Below are positions 8,878 through 34,684 of a DNA stretch of 39,475 nucleotides, one piece after another (the stretch's first letter is position 1; the number at the start of each line of letters is the position of its first letter). The DNA is taken from assembly GCA_013360185.1 (NCBI GenBank), contig JABWCO010000055.1, positions 1 through 39,475 of the forward strand. The letters run 5' to 3'. A program made the position numbers and the translations under genes. This stretch comes from Bdellovibrio sp. (GTDB lineage: Bacteria > Bdellovibrionota > Bdellovibrionia > Bdellovibrionales > Bdellovibrionaceae). Below the pieces are notes generated by a model. It did no database searches. It was not told the DNA's origin and was given only the letters and a program-made list of their open reading frames with translations.

Positions 8878-8908
8878 TTGACCTTGCCGTTACGTCAAAG
8901 CCTATGGT
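8878..8908 (+). promoter_or_regulatory. MerR-type promoter and operator (19-bp spacer with dyad)
   Basis: A -35 TTGACC (8878-8883) and a -10 TATGGT (8903-8908) are separated by 19 bp, the over-long spacing typical of MerR-activated promoters. The spacer contains the dyad ACCTTGCCGT-T-ACGTCAAAG (8881-8900), with one mismatch per half in the core. Transcription would start near 8915, giving a short leader with AAGGAA before the ATG at 8933. The obvious activator is the MerR-domain protein encoded directly downstream. Confidence 0.75.
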
Positions 8909-8932
8909 CAATTTATGGGAAGGAATCCAAGA

Positions 8933-10471
8933 ATGCTTTCAATCGGACAATTCGCAAAATCAGCCCACGTTTCTGCGCGCACCGTGCGCTACTACGAGTC
9001 TATTGGTTTATTGCCGAAATCCACACGAGGCGAAAACAACTATCGTTTCTATGATCAAAAAAATTTACCGCTGATGAATCGCATTCGCGATCTGCAAAGT
9101 TTGGGATTTAGTCTTGAAGACATCAAGATCGTCATCCACTTTTCAGAAAACGAATTGCACGCACGTCTGCACAAAAGACTTTTAGAAATAGAACAAGAAG
9201 TTGCTAACCTTGAGGACCGCAAAGAGCGCATTCAAAAACTCCTTTCCGTAGCCAACAAAATCAAAATCGGTGAAGTACTCACCGCCACGGAAAGGGATTT
9301 GTATATGGAGAACATCAAAGAAGAAGTCTTAGCTGGCTTGCACACGCGCTATAGCGAAATCTCGGAAACGGCGCTAGCCTACCTAAAAAGAGACGAGTGG
9401 CTGACAGCTCATCCCAATGTTAGGGACTATCTTGACGGCGTTAAAAAGTGTCTGGAGTTTGCTAAGAAAAATAATCTAAAACTGGGCCCAGCTCGCGGCA
9501 GTGCTTCGGCAAGTCTGTCGCTTTATGGCTTAGGTGTTTCCGGTGTTGATCCCATAAAGCATGAATTGATTCCAGAACGACTTAGTGCACGTCGCCCCTT
9601 TTTTCACATCGATGTCGAATACAGTAAAGGTCAAGAGTTCGTCGACTTTTGCAAAGGTATCAACTCAAAGCTTCCCTATGGTGAAATTCAAGCCTTTAAA
9701 ATGCCATTGCTAGATATCGTGCAAAACGTAAATAAGGCGTTAGACCAAGAAATTGACTTCGATGCCATTGACGACAACTCTGACTTAGTCCTAAATCCGT
9801 TTCGCAATCAAGACTTTGCAAAGATCTTCCAATTCGATTTTTCCCCGGACGCTTTGGTCATGAATTTTGAAAAGTTCGTACCTGAATTTTTAGGTTTAGG
9901 AAAAATCACCGAGCACTTTAATGGACAAAAGGATTTTAGCTTTAGAGACATCATAAACATAACAGCCCTGTGGCGTCCTTACACAAAAGAAATTGTCGAA
10001 CGCATCGAGCTTTACCGCAAAGCCAAAGCAACGAAACCGCATGACTATGGATTTTTAAGTGAAAGAATCAAAACTTACTTAGAACCAAACTATGGCGTGA
10101 TCATTTATCAAGAAGATATTATCCGTATAATTGCAGAATATACGGGTTGGGACTTTGCCCGCAGCAACGCTTTACGACTTGCGTGTAGCAACCACAAAAT
10201 CACCAACCACAAAGAGCAAATTCCCGACTGGAGCGAGTTTCAACGATTAGCCCCAGAATCTGTTGTCGCCTTGGTAGCGGAAGAAAGCAAGTGGGTCTTT
10301 TGTCAGCCTCACGCAATTGCCTTTGCCAAGTTTACCAAGATGACGGCCGTGCTAAAATCACTACACCAGGATTTATATTATCAAGAAATCGCGCGCTTTG
10401 AACAAGCACACGGAGTTTGTTGGGACGATATCGGAATATACTGGAAAGGTGTTTCATTACACCAAAGCTAA
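8933..10471 (+). CDS. MerR HTH fused to a DNA polymerase III alpha-like palm fragment
   Basis: Residues 1-70 are a canonical MerR winged helix (SARTVRYYESIGLLPKS, NNYRFYDQKN), followed by the usual coiled coil (about 75-108). From about 120 the protein follows the C-family replicative polymerase DnaE: GPARGSASASLSLYGLGVSG (185-204) matches its PGRGSAAGS motif, FFHIDV (223-228) its catalytic DxD strand, FLGLGKIT (319-326) its FLGL segment, ALWRPY (345-350) its ALYRPGP, YGVIIYQEDI (387-396) its YGVIVYQE and FCQPHAIAFA (456-465) its FNKSHSAAYA. The first catalytic Asp is His225; Asp227 is kept; the third position appears not to be Asp (Glu318 in the most likely alignment). PHP, beta-clamp and OB parts are absent. 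A dead palm used as a sensing domain is my inference. Start chosen by AAGGAA at 8918. Confidence 0.85.
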   Translation: MLSIGQFAKSAHVSARTVRYYESIGLLPKSTRGENNYRFYDQKNLPLMNRIRDLQSLGFSLEDIKIVIHFSENELHARLHKRLLEIEQEVANLEDRKERIQKLLSVANKIKIGEVLTATERDLYMENIKEEVLAGLHTRYSEISETALAYLKRDEWLTAHPNVRDYLDGVKKCLEFAKKNNLKLGPARGSASASLSLYGLGVSGVDPIKHELIPERLSARRPFFHIDVEYSKGQEFVDFCKGINSKLPYGEIQAFKMPLLDIVQNVNKALDQEIDFDAIDDNSDLVLNPFRNQDFAKIFQFDFSPDALVMNFEKFVPEFLGLGKITEHFNGQKDFSFRDIINITALWRPYTKEIVERIELYRKAKATKPHDYGFLSERIKTYLEPNYGVIIYQEDIIRIIAEYTGWDFARSNALRLACSNHKITNHKEQIPDWSEFQRLAPESVVALVAEESKWVFCQPHAIAFAKFTKMTAVLKSLHQDLYYQEIARFEQAHGVCWDDIGIYWKGVSLHQS

Positions 10472-14498: not shown

Positions 14499-14596
14499 AA
14501 CCTTTATTCAGGCACGCTTCTTGGATATACAACCCTCGCTAGTCGAAATTTCGATGTTTCAGTGTCGCGATGACACTCAATCAGAGCGGGGGAAGT

Positions 14597-17500
14597 ATGA
14601 AAAAAACCACGAACACATTTTTCTGGGTACTGAGTGCACTCTTAGTTGCACTAAATACAGGATGCTCCGCATCAAAGCAGAGCCAAAATGCCCTTCCTAA
14701 CGCGCAGTTTCTTGATGGTCTTTATGTAGCCAGACCGACTGTGGCAGAGCCCATCATCACAATTTTGAAACTGCAAAATCCTGCCCTGCTTGAAACTTCT
14801 ACACGCAAGGACGGTAAGCTCGTCATCGATCAGAAACTTTTGAAAGCGATCGAAACAGAGCAAGCGGACACCATCGCCGCTTTACAAAAAATTTCTCCGC
14901 AAATTCGCGTGTTGATTCGCTATCGTTTGGTATTAAATGGTCTGGCGATCTGGGCCCCGGCGGAAGCGTTTGAGCAAATCAAAAACTTACCAAACGTCAT
15001 CATGCAAGAAAAGGCCACAAACTTTGCGCGCCCTAAGGCTGCCACTGTGGCACCAAAAACGGCCGTGGGTGAAAAGACCTCCGTCAACTTCATCGGTTCT
15101 GATCTTGCCCACGCGCAAGGCATCAACGGTGAAGGTTTGCGTGTTGGAATCATCGACACAGGTATCGACTACACTCATAAAATGCTTGGCGGAGAGGGCA
15201 CCGAAGAGGCCTTTAAAGCCAACAATCCTCTGCTTGCAAATCCAGCCTTCCCCAATAAAAAAGTCGTGGGCGGTATAGACCTAGTGGGCACTGAGTACAA
15301 TGCCGCTTCGCCAGATCCTGTTTTACGCGTGCCAAAACCAGATGCAAATCCCATCGATGAAGGTGGTCACGGAACTCACGTTGCGGGCACTGTTGCCGGT
15401 ATTGGTGATGGCTTAAACACCTACAGTGGTGTGGCTCCGGCCGCGGACCTTTACGCTTTAAAAGTTTTTGGTGCAAATGGTTCAACAAGTGATGAGATCG
15501 TGATTGCGGCCTTAGAGTTCGCAGCCGACCCAACAGGTGACTTGTCATTTAAAGAGCAATTAGACGTTGTGAATCTTTCTTTGGGTGGTGGTTACGGCAA
15601 CCCACATATTATGTACAACCACGCGATCACAAACCTCGTTCGCGGCGGAACTATCGTGGTCGCAGCGGCTGGGAACAGTGGTGATACTGGCTACATCGTG
15701 GGTGCTCCAGGCAGCTCTGATGATGCGATCTCAGTTGCATCCAGTGTCGACAACCAAAATCAAAACGTTCTTTTCCCTGCCGCTGAATTTAAATTCGGCA
15801 GTGAAATCTTAAATGCCGAAATGATCGAAGGCGCCATCACAAAACCATTGGCCGAAGTCACAGATGCCCAAGGAGAATTGATCTTCTTAGGTCTTGCCGA
15901 CAAAGATTTCGATGCGGCCCTTAAAGAAAAAGTAAAAGGCAAAGTGGCTTTCATCGATCGCGGTGGAGTGGCTTTTTCTGACAAAGTAAAAAGAGCTGCC
16001 GAAGCAGGTGCCGTTGCCGTTATTGTTGCCAACAATGCCGATGATGCCCCCTTTGTTATGGGTGGCGACGGAAAATTTGAAATCCCGGGCGCGATGATTT
16101 CTAAAAAAGATGCAGCGACTTTAAAAGCTGAAATGGCGAAAGGCCCTGTCACAGTGAACTTAAAAACCACTGTGAAAATTGAAAAACCATGGCTTGCTGA
16201 TACGATGTCTACTTTCTCTTCACGCGGCCCCCGTTCTGATGACGGTTTGATCAAACCGGAAATCTCGGCTCCAGGCACAAACATCATTTCCGCTGATATG
16301 GGTGGCGGAGCCCGTGGCGTGGAAAACTCTGGCACTTCAATGGCCAGTCCGCACATTGCTGGTGTCATGGCTTTATTAAAGCAAAAGCACCCGACTTTAA
16401 GCCCTTACGAACTTAAATCAGTTCTTATGTCACAAGGTAAAGTGATTGCTGACCCGAAAGGTGCTCAATACTCTGTAAGCCGCCAAGGTGCTGGCCGCGC
16501 GCAAGTGGGTCTGTCACTGGATGTCAAAACTGTGACGATCCCTTCTTCATTGTCATTAGGAATCACCGATCTTGAAAAACAAAAGACTTTGCGCAAAGAA
16601 ATCCAAGTTAAAAACATCAGTCAAGAAGCCATGACAGTAAAACTGCAATGGAAAGGTTCTGATGCTTTGAAAGTAACAGCGGATGCTGTGACGCTGGCCG
16701 CGGGCGAATCTAAAACTGTGTTGGTCACTGTTAAAATCAACGGTGCCACAAGGAAAGACGCCAACCAAGAGCTTGATGGTTACTTGCAACTTGCAACGGA
16801 TAAAGACGTTGTCGGTCACGTGCCTGTGCTGGCTATCGTTCGTCAGATTTCTCAAGTGGCAGCCAAATCTTTGACTGTCCTTGCCACGTCTGCTGCAGAC
16901 TCTGCAGGCAGTGCTGCGGACCTGGTGTTAACCAATGCCGGAACTAACAAAGGAACTGCGCACATCTTTAACCTTTTAGGTAAAGACGGTCGCAAAAAAG
17001 ATCCAAAACCAGATATTGCTCACAACAAAGCCTGTGACTTGCAATCCGCAGGTTACAGAATCGTTGAAAAAGACGGCACTCAAGTTCTGCAAGTCGCGGT
17101 GAAGTTGTACGAAGCCACCACAACATGGCATGCGTGTGAGGTGAACGTACAAATCGACGCTGATGGCAATGGCGAGGCCGATCAAGAGATCGCAGGCCTT
17201 ACGGGTGAATCATTGCCAGGTCACACGGGTGATCAATTCGTGACCCTGGTCCTTGATGGCACGACAGCTCGCGAGATCCGCAAAAAATTTGAAGCGGACT
17301 TAGCGAAAGATCCAAAAGCCAAAGAAAACTACACAGAGGCTTTGATCGACCAACGCGAAATGCAGGTCTTTGATAACTCCACCCTTGCGATCATTGAAGC
17401 GGATGTGAAGGCCCTAGCCATCGCCGACACGGGCGAGCTGAATATCAAAGTATCAACGACTCACCAAGATGCTGGTGTCGTTGAATATGACGACTATTTG

Positions 17501-17737
17501 GCAGGGCATGCCGACGCTTGGGAAAAGATCTCTTTAAATGAAAAAGCCCAAGGTTTCTATGGCATGCCAGAAACAGTGGAACTTAAAGCCCAAGAAACAA
17601 CGACGCTTGCTTTAACAAAAGGCTATGGATCTCAAGATATCGTAGTCTTCGCTCCACAAAACAAGGCCGTCCGCGATTCAGTCCTAGAAGACGCGCAATC
17701 ACAAGTGATTGCACCAGAATATAAAAACGAGAATTAA
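14597..17737 (+). CDS. Large secreted subtilisin-family (S8) protease with PA domain
   Basis: The 1046-residue protein begins with a hydrophobic signal and a possible lipobox (ALNTGC, Cys23). An inhibitor-I9-like propeptide covers about 105-140 and the subtilase domain about 180-630. The catalytic triad is Asp187 (IIDTGID), His258 (GGHGTHVAG) and Ser581 (GTSMASPHIAG), with oxyanion Asn360. A protease-associated domain is inserted at about 405-520 (AEAGAVAVIVAN). The C-terminal 400 residues look like beta-sandwich domains. In a predator it would degrade prey or extracellular protein. ATG 14597 is preferred because GGGGGAAG lies just upstream; the frame opens nine codons earlier. Confidence 0.95.
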   Translation: MKKTTNTFFWVLSALLVALNTGCSASKQSQNALPNAQFLDGLYVARPTVAEPIITILKLQNPALLETSTRKDGKLVIDQKLLKAIETEQADTIAALQKISPQIRVLIRYRLVLNGLAIWAPAEAFEQIKNLPNVIMQEKATNFARPKAATVAPKTAVGEKTSVNFIGSDLAHAQGINGEGLRVGIIDTGIDYTHKMLGGEGTEEAFKANNPLLANPAFPNKKVVGGIDLVGTEYNAASPDPVLRVPKPDANPIDEGGHGTHVAGTVAGIGDGLNTYSGVAPAADLYALKVFGANGSTSDEIVIAALEFAADPTGDLSFKEQLDVVNLSLGGGYGNPHIMYNHAITNLVRGGTIVVAAAGNSGDTGYIVGAPGSSDDAISVASSVDNQNQNVLFPAAEFKFGSEILNAEMIEGAITKPLAEVTDAQGELIFLGLADKDFDAALKEKVKGKVAFIDRGGVAFSDKVKRAAEAGAVAVIVANNADDAPFVMGGDGKFEIPGAMISKKDAATLKAEMAKGPVTVNLKTTVKIEKPWLADTMSTFSSRGPRSDDGLIKPEISAPGTNIISADMGGGARGVENSGTSMASPHIAGVMALLKQKHPTLSPYELKSVLMSQGKVIADPKGAQYSVSRQGAGRAQVGLSLDVKTVTIPSSLSLGITDLEKQKTLRKEIQVKNISQEAMTVKLQWKGSDALKVTADAVTLAAGESKTVLVTVKINGATRKDANQELDGYLQLATDKDVVGHVPVLAIVRQISQVAAKSLTVLATSAADSAGSAADLVLTNAGTNKGTAHIFNLLGKDGRKKDPKPDIAHNKACDLQSAGYRIVEKDGTQVLQVAVKLYEATTTWHACEVNVQIDADGNGEADQEIAGLTGESLPGHTGDQFVTLVLDGTTAREIRKKFEADLAKDPKAKENYTEALIDQREMQVFDNSTLAIIEADVKALAIADTGELNIKVSTTHQDAGVVEYDDYLAGHADAWEKISLNEKAQGFYGMPETVELKAQETTTLALTKGYGSQDIVVFAPQNKAVRDSVLEDAQSQVIAPEYKNEN

Positions 17738-25579: not shown

Positions 25580-26374
25580 CTAAAACTTAGCAAGATAGGG
25601 GGCTGGCTTGGCCACGATAGTTAAGTGATTTAATCCAGGCACGATATCTACAGGCACTTTAAGGGGGGCAAAAATCTCCTGATAGCGAATGGCCTGATTC
25701 ACTTCATCTCTTTCACCACTGACGATGCATACTGCTGGCTTTAGATTCTCTAAGCGAGACAACAGTTGCGGAGGCGGAGCAACGGCCTGCACGTATTCTG
25801 CGCTATAGCTCAGCTTCTCTTGGCCCGTACGAAACAATTCGGCCATGTTCACCCGAAAGCCACCCTGCTCATCGAAAGTAATCCAGCCGGCGTAACCAGG
25901 CACGTGCACATTAAAATCTGGTGGCAAGTACGGCGCAATCGCCACGAACTTCGCAAACTGCTGACGAATATCTGAAACCGCCACACGCAAAACAAAACCG
26001 CCGCCCATGGAATGACCGGCCAAAGTAATCCGGCTCACCGCCCTTTGACTTTTTAAATGCACAATCAGCTCTTCCAGATCGATTTCTAATTGCTGACCAG
26101 AAATTTTATCAGAAAGCTCGCGGCTGCCCCCGTGACAACGAAAATCAGGGGTCACTACCGTGGCAATTTTTGCTTCCGCCAGAGCTGCGGCTAACAAACA
26201 CATATAACGACTGTCACTGCCCACACCATGATATAAAATCACTAAATCTTCGGACCAGGCTGGATAGAGGCGATACGAAAGCGTGTCGCCCTGGCGAGTT
26301 TTAAAAGTCGTTAAGGGCGCCACTCGCCCCAAAGGAATTTTAAAACTCTTCAAATCCAAGCCGTCAGAACTCAT
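25580..26374 (-). CDS. Alpha/beta-hydrolase
   Basis: The 264-residue protein shows the nucleophile elbow GHSMGGG (Ser122), an oxyanion HG motif (LYHGVGSDS), a likely acid in SGERDEV and a His in PGLNHLTIV. The layout fits a small esterase, lysophospholipase or peptidase of the alpha/beta fold. There is no signal peptide. Its start overlaps the stop of the ABC-F gene (26371-26374), so it is co-translated with it. The substrate is unknown. Confidence 0.87.
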   Translation of the reverse strand: MSSDGLDLKSFKIPLGRVAPLTTFKTRQGDTLSYRLYPAWSEDLVILYHGVGSDSRYMCLLAAALAEAKIATVVTPDFRCHGGSRELSDKISGQQLEIDLEELIVHLKSQRAVSRITLAGHSMGGGFVLRVAVSDIRQQFAKFVAIAPYLPPDFNVHVPGYAGWITFDEQGGFRVNMAELFRTGQEKLSYSAEYVQAVAPPPQLLSRLENLKPAVCIVSGERDEVNQAIRYQEIFAPLKVPVDIVPGLNHLTIVAKPAPYLAKF

Positions 26375-28005
26375 GTGGCGCTTTGCTCTTGTTGTTTTTT
26401 CTGTTGGTAATATTCGTAGTTACCATCATAGATACGAATCTGATTGCGATCCACTTCAAATACTCGCGTTGTCACTTCCCGTAAAAAGTGACGATCATGG
26501 GATACAATCATCACTGTGCCAGGGAAGTTTTTAATCGCATCCAGCAACACTTCACGGGATTTGATATCCAAGTGATTCGTCGGTTCATCGAGAATCAAAA
26601 GATTCACGGGTTGTGCTAAGATCGTCGCCAAAACAACGCGGGATTTTTCACCGCCGGATAAGATCGAAATCTTTTTATCTGCTTCTTCGCCAGAAAACTT
26701 GAAGGCGCCCAAAAGGCTGCGCACAAAACCCATTCCGGCATTGGGAATGCGTGAGTGCACTTCTTCAAAGATCGTCGCCTTGGGATCCAGAACGTCTAAA
26801 GAATTTTGCGAAAAATAGCCAAGGTTGATTGAAGCACCAACAGTCATTTTACCGGCTGTTGGGTCGGCGTGACCCGCAATAATTTTTAATAAGGTCGACT
26901 TACCCGCCCCATTGACCCCAACCACGGCGATGCGATCCAAACGTTTTACTAAGGCGTTAGCCCCAGCGAAAACTGATTTTTCTTTGCCGTCATCGCGCAG
27001 CCAAACTTTCGAAAGGCCCTCAAGTTTCACAACTTCATCGCCCCCGCGCGGCGGAACCGGCCATTCAAATTTAATCTCTGCCTCTTCCGGTGGAATTTCA
27101 ATGCGATCAATTTTTTCTAATTTTTTAACACGCGATTGCACTTGCGCAGCATGTGAAGCACGAGCCGCAAACCGGGCAATAAACTCTTCCTCTTTCGCTA
27201 ACATATCTTCTTGGCGTTTGGCGGCCGCGATTAACTGTTCTTTGCGAATGTCGCGCTCACGCTCATAAAAGTCGTAATTGCCACCATAAACAGTGATCGT
27301 TTTATTGGCGATCTCGACAATTTTAGTTACCAGACGATTCAGGAAGTCACGATCATGGCTAGTCATCAAGATGGCGCCGGTATAATTTGAAAGCCATTCT
27401 TCGAGCCATACGATTGATTCCACGTCCAAGTGATTCGTCGGTTCGTCCATTAACAAAACTTCGGGATTCAACACTAGAATTTTCGCCAAGGCGATACGCA
27501 TTTTCCAACCGCCCGAAAAACTTTCGGTTGGCCGATGATAGTCTTCAGGACCAATACCCAAACCCGTTAAGATTTCCGCGGCACGGGATTCAAGATCATA
27601 ACCACCCAAACGTTCGAAGTCGGCCTGCAATTCGCCGTACACTTCAAGAATTTTCATCATTTCATCAGGATCCAAATCCGGATCCGCCAGCTTGGTTTCA
27701 CAGTCTTGCATGCGGGTTTGCATATCACCAATGTTACCTACGGACGACTTCACCTCTTCCAAGGCGGTTTTGCCGCGCATGTCTTCGATGTCTTGAGAAA
27801 AATATCCAATCACCGTACGGTCAGATTTTGAAATCGTCCCGCCGTCAATACCCTCTTCGCCCGTGATCACGCGAAAGATAGTGGTCTTACCAGCGCCATT
27901 CGGGCCGACTAGACCAATTTTTTCCCCTGCGTTGATTTGAAACGAACCATTGCGATAGAGAATCTTATTTCCATGCTGCTTTGAAATATTTGATAAGTGA
28001 ATCAT
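26371..28005 (-). CDS. ABC-F family ATPase (translation factor type)
   Basis: Two ATP-binding cassettes and no membrane segments define an ABC-F protein, a ribosome-binding class acting at the E site. Cassette 1: GPNGAGKTT, FSGGWKMRI, LLMDEPTNHLD. Cassette 2: GVNGAGKST, LSGGEKSRV, LILDEPTNHLD. Both sites keep all key residues, unlike the second ABC-F at 33092. The inter-domain linker (about 245-320) is charged and helical. Length is 544 residues. GAGGAT precedes the start. It is followed by a coupled alpha/beta-hydrolase. I cannot assign a named subfamily. Confidence 0.93.
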   Translation of the reverse strand: MIHLSNISKQHGNKILYRNGSFQINAGEKIGLVGPNGAGKTTIFRVITGEEGIDGGTISKSDRTVIGYFSQDIEDMRGKTALEEVKSSVGNIGDMQTRMQDCETKLADPDLDPDEMMKILEVYGELQADFERLGGYDLESRAAEILTGLGIGPEDYHRPTESFSGGWKMRIALAKILVLNPEVLLMDEPTNHLDVESIVWLEEWLSNYTGAILMTSHDRDFLNRLVTKIVEIANKTITVYGGNYDFYERERDIRKEQLIAAAKRQEDMLAKEEEFIARFAARASHAAQVQSRVKKLEKIDRIEIPPEEAEIKFEWPVPPRGGDEVVKLEGLSKVWLRDDGKEKSVFAGANALVKRLDRIAVVGVNGAGKSTLLKIIAGHADPTAGKMTVGASINLGYFSQNSLDVLDPKATIFEEVHSRIPNAGMGFVRSLLGAFKFSGEEADKKISILSGGEKSRVVLATILAQPVNLLILDEPTNHLDIKSREVLLDAIKNFPGTVMIVSHDRHFLREVTTRVFEVDRNQIRIYDGNYEYYQQKKQQEQSAT

Positions 28006-32928: not shown

Positions 32929-33091
32929 CTGGTCAAAGCCCAGCCCCAGCCTGCTGATTCTTGTGCCTTCGCCGCAAGAAAAGGCCGTTTGTGAGTGAAA
33001 AAGCTCCCCAGCACGGCACCTAAATTATGCAATTCATTGATATTTGGCGGGTTTTAAAGTATCTAAAGTCCCTCATATCGGGGTACGTACC

Positions 33092-34684
33092 ATGATCAGC
33101 ACATCCAACGTCAGTTTGCGTTTCGGCGGAAAAAAACTTTTCGACGAAGTTAATGTTAAATTCACACCAGGCAATTGTTATGGCCTGATCGGCGCTAATG
33201 GTGCCGGCAAAACAACCTTTCTTAAAGTTTTGGCCAAAGAAATCGAGCCAAACACTGGCGAAGTATTAATTCCCTCTACTTTACGCCTTTCAGTTTTAAA
33301 ACAAGATCACTATGCCTATGACAACGTCACTGTTCTAAAAACCGTCCTGATGGGCAACGACCGCCTTTACAACGTGATGGAAGAAAAAGATGCACTTTAC
33401 GCAAAGCCTGATTTTTCCGAAGCCGATGGGGTCAGGGCTTCTGAGTTAGAAACTGAATTCGCCGAACTCAATGGCTGGGAAGCCGAAGCTGAAGCGGGGG
33501 TGATGCTTGCGGGCTTAGGAATTTCTGATGAGCTGCATGGCAAAGACATGAAGGATCTGGATCCTGGCGACAAGGTCAAAGTCCTTTTGGCGCAAGCCTT
33601 ATTCGGCCAACCAGATATTTTACTTCTGGATGAGCCCACGAATCACTTGGATATCTATGCGATTCAGTGGTTAGAAAACTTTCTTTTAAATTTTGAAAAC
33701 ACCGTGATCGTTGTTTCCCATGACCGTTACTTTTTAAATAAAGTCTGCACTCACATGGCTGATATTGATTTTAATAAAGTCACGGTTTTCTCTGGTAACT
33801 ATGAGTTCTGGCGTGAAGCGACTGAGTTAAGTCAACGCCTGCGCGCTGATCAGCGTAAGCGCAACGAAGAAAAAGCTGACGATTTAAAAAGCTTTATCCA
33901 ACGCTTTAGTGCCAACGCTTCAAAGTCGCGCCAAGCTTCGTCACGCCAAAAACAACTCGAAAAATTAGACTTAGGCGATTTACCCGTCTCGACTCGCCGT
34001 CAACCTTTTGTCGGCTTTGACCCAAAACGCGAAGCGGGCAACGATATTTTGACGGTGCAAGGATTGACGAAAACTATCAACGGCGAAAAACTTTTAGACA
34101 ACGTCAGCTTCACTTTAAAGAAAGCCGACAAGGTTGTGCTTTTAGGTCGCAATGACGTCGCCAAGACCGTTTTGCTCGACATTTTAGCTGGCGACATGCA
34201 ACCAGATTCAGGCACTGTCACTTGGGGGATCACCACCACGCGCAGCTATTTCCCTACCGACAACTCTCGCTATTTTGAAAATGCTTCTGGCACCTTGGTG
34301 GATTGGTTGCGTGAGTACTCGGAAGACAAAGATGAATCGTTCTTACGCGGCTTCCTAGGGAAAATGCTTTTTAGTGGCGAAGATGCTTTGAAAAGTCCTA
34401 AAGTTCTTTCTGGGGGCGAAAAAGTTCGCTGTATGTTTTCCAAGATGATGCTTTCTGGTGCCAACGTTTTGTTACTGGATGGTCCCACTGCGCATTTAGA
34501 TTTAGAAAGTATTTCGGCGGTCAATGAAGGTGTCAAACGCTTTAAGGGCACGGTCATCTTTACGTCCCATGATCATGAGTTCGTACAAACCGTCGCAAAT
34601 CGTATTATTGAAATTGATGGCCGCATTGTTGAGGACCTTAACATTACTTACGATGAATACATCGAGTCGAAGAAGCCGCAATGA
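33092..34684 (+). CDS. ybiT: YbiT-like ABC-F ATPase with one degenerate ATP site
   Basis: At 530 residues it has the length and order of E. coli YbiT, and its first cassette aligns well (GLIGANGAGKTT, LLLDEPTNHLD). Cassette 2 is altered: Walker A reads GRNDVAKT (Ala357 for the last Gly), the Q-loop Gln is lost (FPTDN), and the catalytic Glu of Walker B is Gly464 (LLLDGPTAHLD). Signature 1 is LDPGD, signature 2 is LSGGEK. So the site made by cassette 2 Walker motifs plus signature 1 is degenerate, and the other is intact. The linker FSANASKSRQASSRQ is typical. CGGGG precedes the start. It overlaps the S1-protein gene by ATGA and leads a three-gene operon with hflX. Confidence 0.9.
   Translation: MISTSNVSLRFGGKKLFDEVNVKFTPGNCYGLIGANGAGKTTFLKVLAKEIEPNTGEVLIPSTLRLSVLKQDHYAYDNVTVLKTVLMGNDRLYNVMEEKDALYAKPDFSEADGVRASELETEFAELNGWEAEAEAGVMLAGLGISDELHGKDMKDLDPGDKVKVLLAQALFGQPDILLLDEPTNHLDIYAIQWLENFLLNFENTVIVVSHDRYFLNKVCTHMADIDFNKVTVFSGNYEFWREATELSQRLRADQRKRNEEKADDLKSFIQRFSANASKSRQASSRQKQLEKLDLGDLPVSTRRQPFVGFDPKREAGNDILTVQGLTKTINGEKLLDNVSFTLKKADKVVLLGRNDVAKTVLLDILAGDMQPDSGTVTWGITTTRSYFPTDNSRYFENASGTLVDWLREYSEDKDESFLRGFLGKMLFSGEDALKSPKVLSGGEKVRCMFSKMMLSGANVLLLDGPTAHLDLESISAVNEGVKRFKGTVIFTSHDHEFVQTVANRIIEIDGRIVEDLNITYDEYIESKKPQ

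Follow-up and report, generated by a model that had tools for sequence, protein, structure and literature searches.

A MerR-type regulator fused to a degenerate DNA polymerase III alpha core in Bdellovibrionota, with a predicted internal start

TipA is a MerR regulator which induces its own gene, yields two in-frame products, one full-length and one reduced to the effector domain, and traps an antibiotic (PMC7762955, PMC6078987). AlbA from Klebsiella oxytoca is an autoregulated MerR protein with an internal in-frame start, whose short product AlbAS sequesters albicidin, a replication (gyrase) inhibitor (PMC12531866). The locus described here lies within a stretch of 39,475 nucleotides of Bdellovibrio sp. 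DNA, analysed as a whole and referred to as the window. It contains a gene, called MerR-palm in the following, in which a MerR head and coiled coil are fused to a degenerate Pol III alpha core. By analogy with the two systems above, the data suggest that the protein is a decoy, able to detect and mop up an agent directed against the genuine polymerase.

Domains, fold and active site of the fusion

A single uninterrupted open frame of 518 codons extends over positions 8915-10471 of the forward strand. Its true start is probably the ATG at 8933 rather than the mechanical ORF start at 8915, because a Shine-Dalgarno sequence, GGGAAGGA, is located at 8917-8924 (+) and the relatives begin at or near the equivalent codon. 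The long product (8933-10471, +) thus has 512 aa (~59 kDa). Three Pfam domains were detected above cut-off: MerR_1 at residues 9-74 of P0001 (8939-9136, +; E 2.6e-17), corresponding to the winged HTH, DNA_pol3_alpha at residues 134-247 (E 1.2e-11), and DNA_pol3_finger at residues 342-432 (9938-10210, +; E 6e-14), which define the core of the fingers domain. NCBIfam and PDB sequence searches concur with this assignment, and the profile alignment of the MerR-palm core against 20 Bdellovibrionota DnaE1 proteins gave an E value of 5e-39. Between head and core, a long coiled-coil helix (residues 78-117; 9146-9265, +), predicted to mediate dimerisation, was recognised in the AlphaFold2 secondary structure.

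The AlphaFold2 model, built from 17 family sequences, has a pLDDT of 83. Structure comparison of this predicted fold matched residues 112-500 to C-family polymerases, the best match being M. tuberculosis DnaE1 (7pu7; Z 31.8, rmsd 3.0 over 351 residues), with residues 282-797 of the E. coli structure 2hnh also matched (Z 29.1); the head of the model matches SoxR, TipAL and CadR, with Z of 11-12. The profile and structure check proposed along with the original prediction thus returned a clear match, and ORF, Pfam and fold data all confirm that one frame joins MerR and Pol III alpha parts, the palm occupying the effector-domain position behind the MerR head. The polymerase part consists of palm and fingers only. 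The 512-aa chain has no PHP, thumb, beta-binding, OB or tau-binding parts; the loss of PHP, OB and tau-binding parts had been correctly anticipated, while the description of the core as palm and thumb was wrong, fingers being kept and thumb lost. The absence of the thumb, which we take to span approximately residues 433-510 in E. coli, follows from the distance between the DxD strand and the strand of the third Asp, ~30 residues in MerR-palm versus ~150 in DnaE.

The active site was surveyed in 20 family members, residue equivalences being assigned by motif and predicted secondary structure. Of the three catalytic Asp, only the second is retained in the window protein (H-x-D ... K). The DxD motif (E. 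coli D401/D403) is replaced by H231-I-D233 (9605-9613, +), as had been noticed for its first position, which is H or W in 20/20 members, while the second is D in 20/20. The third Asp (E. coli D555) is replaced by K262 (9698-9700, +), with K or R in 19/20 members and Q in 1/20; AFKMPLLDI aligns without gaps to KFDFLGLKTL, across the family the strand corresponding to KFDFLGL is AFKMP, AFRSP or a similar sequence, and in the model this strand covers residues 257-263 and is followed by a helix at 264-276. The expectation that the third position is not Asp was therefore right, but the catalytic motif had been sought in FLGLGKIT, a placement ruled out by motif order and predicted secondary structure, since this segment is situated after the GxFQ motif. 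The K553 equivalent is Ala. Given these substitutions, the protein is predicted to lack polymerase activity.

Other active-site residues are invariant in the 20 members, namely the Arg of the GPxRG loop (G191-G195; 9485-9499, +), corresponding to the GPGRG motif of DnaE, the second Asp at the D403 position, the Glu of YQED (E400), and H466 (10310-10312, +). The latter is equivalent to the active-site pocket residue H787 of M. tuberculosis DnaE1, where Gln638, Arg667 and His787 form hydrogen bonds with nargenicin (PMC8922275). All three pocket residues, equivalenced by motif, are present in the window protein as Q306, R354 and H466, and only the His is conserved in all members; clade B lacks both Arg and Gln, so that the ligand may differ between clades.

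Promoter, operator and internal start signal

A MerR-type promoter/operator, conserved in all clade-A relatives, was found at 8878-8908 (+). It consists of a -35 box TTGACC (8878-8883), a 19-bp spacer containing the imperfect dyad CCTTGCCGT-T-ACGTCAAAG, whose arms match at 7 of 9 positions, and a -10 box TATGGT (8903-8908). The clade-A consensus, TTGACC-TTG(C/T)CGTTACGTCAA-N4-(C/T)ATG(G/A)T, stands directly upstream of every clade-A gene, and promoters with a 19-bp spacer are present in all six clade-A genes and in most clade-C ones; spacers of 19-20 bp are typical for MerR promoters (PMC9909328).

In a scan allowing up to three mismatches, which more degenerate targets would escape, the 21-bp clade-A operator was found once per genome, at the MerR-palm gene, in six carrier genomes; an extra site in genome G014 corresponds to the MerR-Lon promoter, described below. 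The clade-B operator differs, and is likewise found solely at its own gene in six genomes. Since in both clades, 12 genomes together, the scan located the respective operator at no promoter but that of the gene, MerR-palm seems to control itself alone, through a predicted self-only operator. This speaks against a plain dNTP sensor governing a regulon, dNTPs having been among the ligands named at the outset. The original prediction had overlooked the putatively autoregulatory promoter with its 19-bp spacer, as well as the conserved start within the gene and the related MerR fusions.

The second signal is located at the junction of linker and palm, where an internal Shine-Dalgarno sequence, GGAAAGGGA (9289-9297, +), holding an invariant AGG Arg codon, was identified by codon and SD comparison. 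The junction Arg is encoded by AGG in 35/36 genes, compared with 4/140 at other conserved Arg columns (Fisher p ~3e-31, a nominal value because relatedness is ignored), and AGG accounts for 86 of the 814 Arg codons (10.6%) of these genes. Among 40 degenerate conserved columns of the 18 palm genes, no column other than the junction Arg shows the same codon throughout, the next best reaching 0.67. Shared ancestry alone does not explain the AGG, because other conserved columns use mixed codons between clades. The codon lies within AAGG, AAGGA or AAGGAG(G), 6-9 bases 5' of a conserved Met, which is lost in one palm gene only (L119), where it is replaced by a Val encoded by GTG. The residue following the Arg varies (N, S, T, K, R, D, G), while purines mostly persist. 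In 33 of 38 genes the junction Met has the best anti-SD energy among all internal Met; the internal SD of clade A, AAGG(A), is of moderate strength (about -4.6 to -4.9 kcal/mol), and the junction Met is outscored by another one in four genes of this clade.

The simplest reading of this pattern is a ribosome start within the gene, predicted to release the palm and fingers alone, as a free dead core of 388 aa (~45 kDa) initiated at the ATG at 9305 (9305-10471, +). AGG, being a minor Arg codon in these genes, might alternatively make the ribosome pause while the MerR head folds, with the fusion protein as the only product. Pausing would leave unexplained that the purines after AGG are kept despite residue changes, giving AAGGA or AAGGAG, and that Met is kept at a near-fixed spacing, its L119 substitute GTG being itself a start codon; such a role is accordingly regarded as very improbable.

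Distribution, origin and sister fusions

A palm/fingers profile search detected MerR-palm in 22 of 369 Bdellovibrionota genomes, in single copy each, and all full copies sit behind a MerR head. Two copies are exceptions, that of G103 having one in-frame TAG and that of G081 being cut by the contig end; the others are open frames. Four close relatives (56-66% identity) occur in public Bdellovibrio and Bdellovibrionales MAGs, but their contigs coincide with those of certain carriers among the 22, and they are not independent copies (L048/G071, L049/G072, L050/L116/G226, L051/L117/G302 and L052/G009 are evidently the same records). An assembly chimera is rejected by the full-length relatives, of 25-66% identity, found in other genomes and MAGs. 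Outside Bdellovibrionota, no member was found in one pattern-based contig scan using Bdellovibrionaceae motifs, which also missed the f12 members. Searches for a phage or plasmid origin produced no record with 80% coverage, just ordinary DnaE or MerR proteins, and no viral contigs.

In the tree, the palm part is monophyletic with a support of 100/100, apart from DnaE1 and DnaE2, a placement to be read with caution because long branches meet. The MerR heads are too short for their tree to tell a single fusion event from several. Three close pairs gave dN/dS values of 0.06-0.12 in the palm part, indicating purifying selection; together with the open frames in all copies except G103 and G081, these values reject a pseudogene. 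Distribution is sporadic, the gene relocates, diverges fast and is found in several different genomic contexts inside one genus, so that MerR-palm looks like a functional accessory gene.

The proposed survey of further fusions and their neighbourhoods thus yielded the 22 genomes; operon and target neighbours conserved across clades were sought and none was found. Small RelE/HigB-like and HigA-like pairs, recognised by eye, are located near three MerR-palm genes (L066 7061-7716, L067 9743-10385, L051 954-1539), but their orientation or distance varies; they are probably mobile and unrelated, and were discounted as partners. The neighbours within the window, an outer-membrane-like protein and a chemoreceptor (both by eye), a VOC protein and a GAF protein, give no functional link. 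Elsewhere, the window encodes two ABC-F type ATPases (26371-28005, -, and 33044-34684, +; duplicated ABC_tran with ABC_tran_Xtn), a class which includes ribosome protection proteins, and a large, likely secreted subtilase of 1055 aa with PA and Fn3-like parts (14570-17737, +).

MerR heads are also joined to other enzyme pieces. In MerR-Mur, which shares the chassis and the internal start of MerR-palm, the C-terminus of ~330 aa resembles a degenerate middle domain of Mur ligases, its model matching Mur ligases and cyanophycin synthetase with Z ~20. MerR-DnaB, with the same chassis, was found once (L128 4105-5226, -, genome G127); it carries a DnaB_C helicase domain (Pfam E 1.1e-32) with an apparently intact Walker A, the gene is preceded by the dyad CTCCCTAGGGGGAG, and an SD with an ATG is present at the junction. 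MerR-Lon (L124 4242-5324, +, genome G014) ends in a Lon protease N-terminal domain (E 3.2e-24), and its operator is 3 bases off the MerR-palm operator of the same genome; an internal start signal was sought in L124 and none was found.

The MerR-Mur set comprises 17 sequences (A5), including L131 11585-12568, L012, L013, L014, L122, L123 and L125-L127. An AGG Arg codon is present at the internal start, many members have a TTGACC-type promoter, and the operator is essentially self-only where found. MerR-Mur is more widespread than MerR-palm; G006 carries the former without the latter, and in several complete Bdellovibrio genomes MerR-Mur is located ~11-13 kb from the record start. The other long MerR proteins compared looked ordinary or of unrelated types.

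A broader reading, tentative and held at somewhat less than an even chance, is that a Bdellovibrionota MerR chassis, formed by head, coiled coil and a linker with built-in start, serves to display and release parts of essential enzymes in degenerate form, namely the core of Pol III alpha, the helicase domain of DnaB, the middle domain of a Mur ligase and perhaps the N domain of Lon. These parts would be self-inducing target mimics, an integrated decoy against agents attacking those enzymes. To our knowledge, no such strategy has previously been described in bacteria.

Interpretation and relation to known systems

The preferred explanation, to which a probability of about 0.55 is assigned, is an autoregulated sensor-sponge similar to TipA and AlbA, with a dead replicative polymerase core as effector domain. 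A MerR dimer would occupy the 19-bp spacer of its own promoter; a ligand entering the palm/fingers cleft would cause the MerR head to distort the promoter and the gene to be transcribed. The mRNA would be translated from both in-frame starts, giving the 512-aa sensor and the 388-aa free core, and the latter would build up and sequester the ligand. The output would be the protein itself, because no other operator was found. Most likely the ligand attacks the Pol III alpha active-site pocket, and may be either a compound resembling an antibiotic or a protein from phage or prey; an inhibitor is preferred over a nucleotide because a trap suits a ligand that is scarce and bound tightly. MerR-palm is not known to be linked to any resistance or defence phenotype.

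The clamp loader and primer-template, initially suggested as what is sensed, are unlikely ligands for a protein devoid of tau-binding, OB and thumb parts. A nucleotide sensor, in which a dNTP, an NTP or an alarmone such as ppGpp would be bound by the dead palm through its GPxRG loop and D403, and the MerR head would tune replication-related genes through operators too degenerate for the scan, fits the invariant GPxRG Arg and second Asp. It would also suit the life of Bdellovibrio, which alternates between a non-replicating attack phase and a replicating growth phase. Against it, the operator occurs at the own promoter only in the 12 genomes, there are no conserved neighbours, most genomes lack the gene, and the equivalents of K553 and D555 are Ala and Lys; moreover, it is hard to see what an excess of ligand-binding domain from the internal start would serve if the ligand were a nucleotide present in abundance, and the whole reading is considered unlikely. 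The separate dead core predicted here, with its fingers kept, could instead be a replication brake, dominant-negative on the cell's own replisome or primer-template, with the MerR form setting its level. Since the protein lacks the surfaces by which Pol III alpha docks (PHP, thumb, OB and tau-binding parts), and the same architecture is found with Mur-ligase-like and DnaB domains, so that its logic is not replication-specific, a brake appears rather improbable.

Compatible with the preferred sensor-sponge is a more specific, doubtful version, in which a protein inhibitor of Pol III alpha, of phage or prey origin, takes the place of a small molecule as ligand, the palm/fingers mimic serves as its bait, and the alarm is self-amplification. 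The sporadic, relocating, fast-diverging, single-copy gene and the attackable enzyme pieces of the sister fusions (Pol III alpha, DnaB, Mur ligase, Lon) are in its favour, to be set against the lack of conserved defence neighbours and of an inhibitor known in Bdellovibrionota; in the anti-phage defence models of PADLOC, the match was limited to the mad1 MerR-like HTH, at residues 4-49.

If the sensor-sponge is real, a one-gene resistance circuit, known with antibiotic-binding folds, could arise from an inactive copy of the very target of a drug or attacker, and domain identity would reveal what an undiscovered agent attacks. As an antibiotic target, Pol III alpha is much wanted and little exploited, and the core might serve as bait for such agents, whether they come from prey, from competitors or from the phages of predatory bacteria. 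Both products would be concealed by an annotation as 'MerR regulator', and equally by one as 'DNA polymerase III alpha'.

No MerR-polymerase fusion was found in the open literature searched, although one may still exist, in agreement with the earlier view that no regulator of such build is described. Winged HTH, coiled-coil helix and operator in a 19-bp spacer place the protein in the MerR family. The large C-terminal ligand domain is shared with BmrR, EcmrR and BrlR, where it is GyrI-like; their fold differs, they control efflux or other genes, and we know of no effector-only product for them. With the DnaE1 core, MerR-palm shares motif order and the palm and fingers fold of C-family polymerases, but it is fused to MerR, its K553 equivalent is Ala and two residues of the Asp triad are replaced (H231, D233, K262).

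The TipA class (TipAL/TipAS, SkgA, Mta) has the same order of MerR head, coiled coil and C-terminal effector domain, and the same minimal one-gene circuit with own-promoter operator and two in-frame starts, in MerR-palm predicted from sequence. In MerR-palm, ~390 aa of dead palm and fingers from Pol III alpha stand in place of the helical TipAS fold as effector; there is no thiopeptide pocket, and the operator was found nowhere else. As Pfam returns Pol III alpha domains instead of TipAS (PF07739), MerR-palm would work like TipA without being a member of the class. A self-directed MerR operator and an in-frame internal start, both predicted in MerR-palm, are also features of AlbA (AlbAL/AlbAS); AlbAS is a duplicated TipAS-like fold and no copy of the drug target, whereas the effector of MerR-palm resembles the target enzyme.
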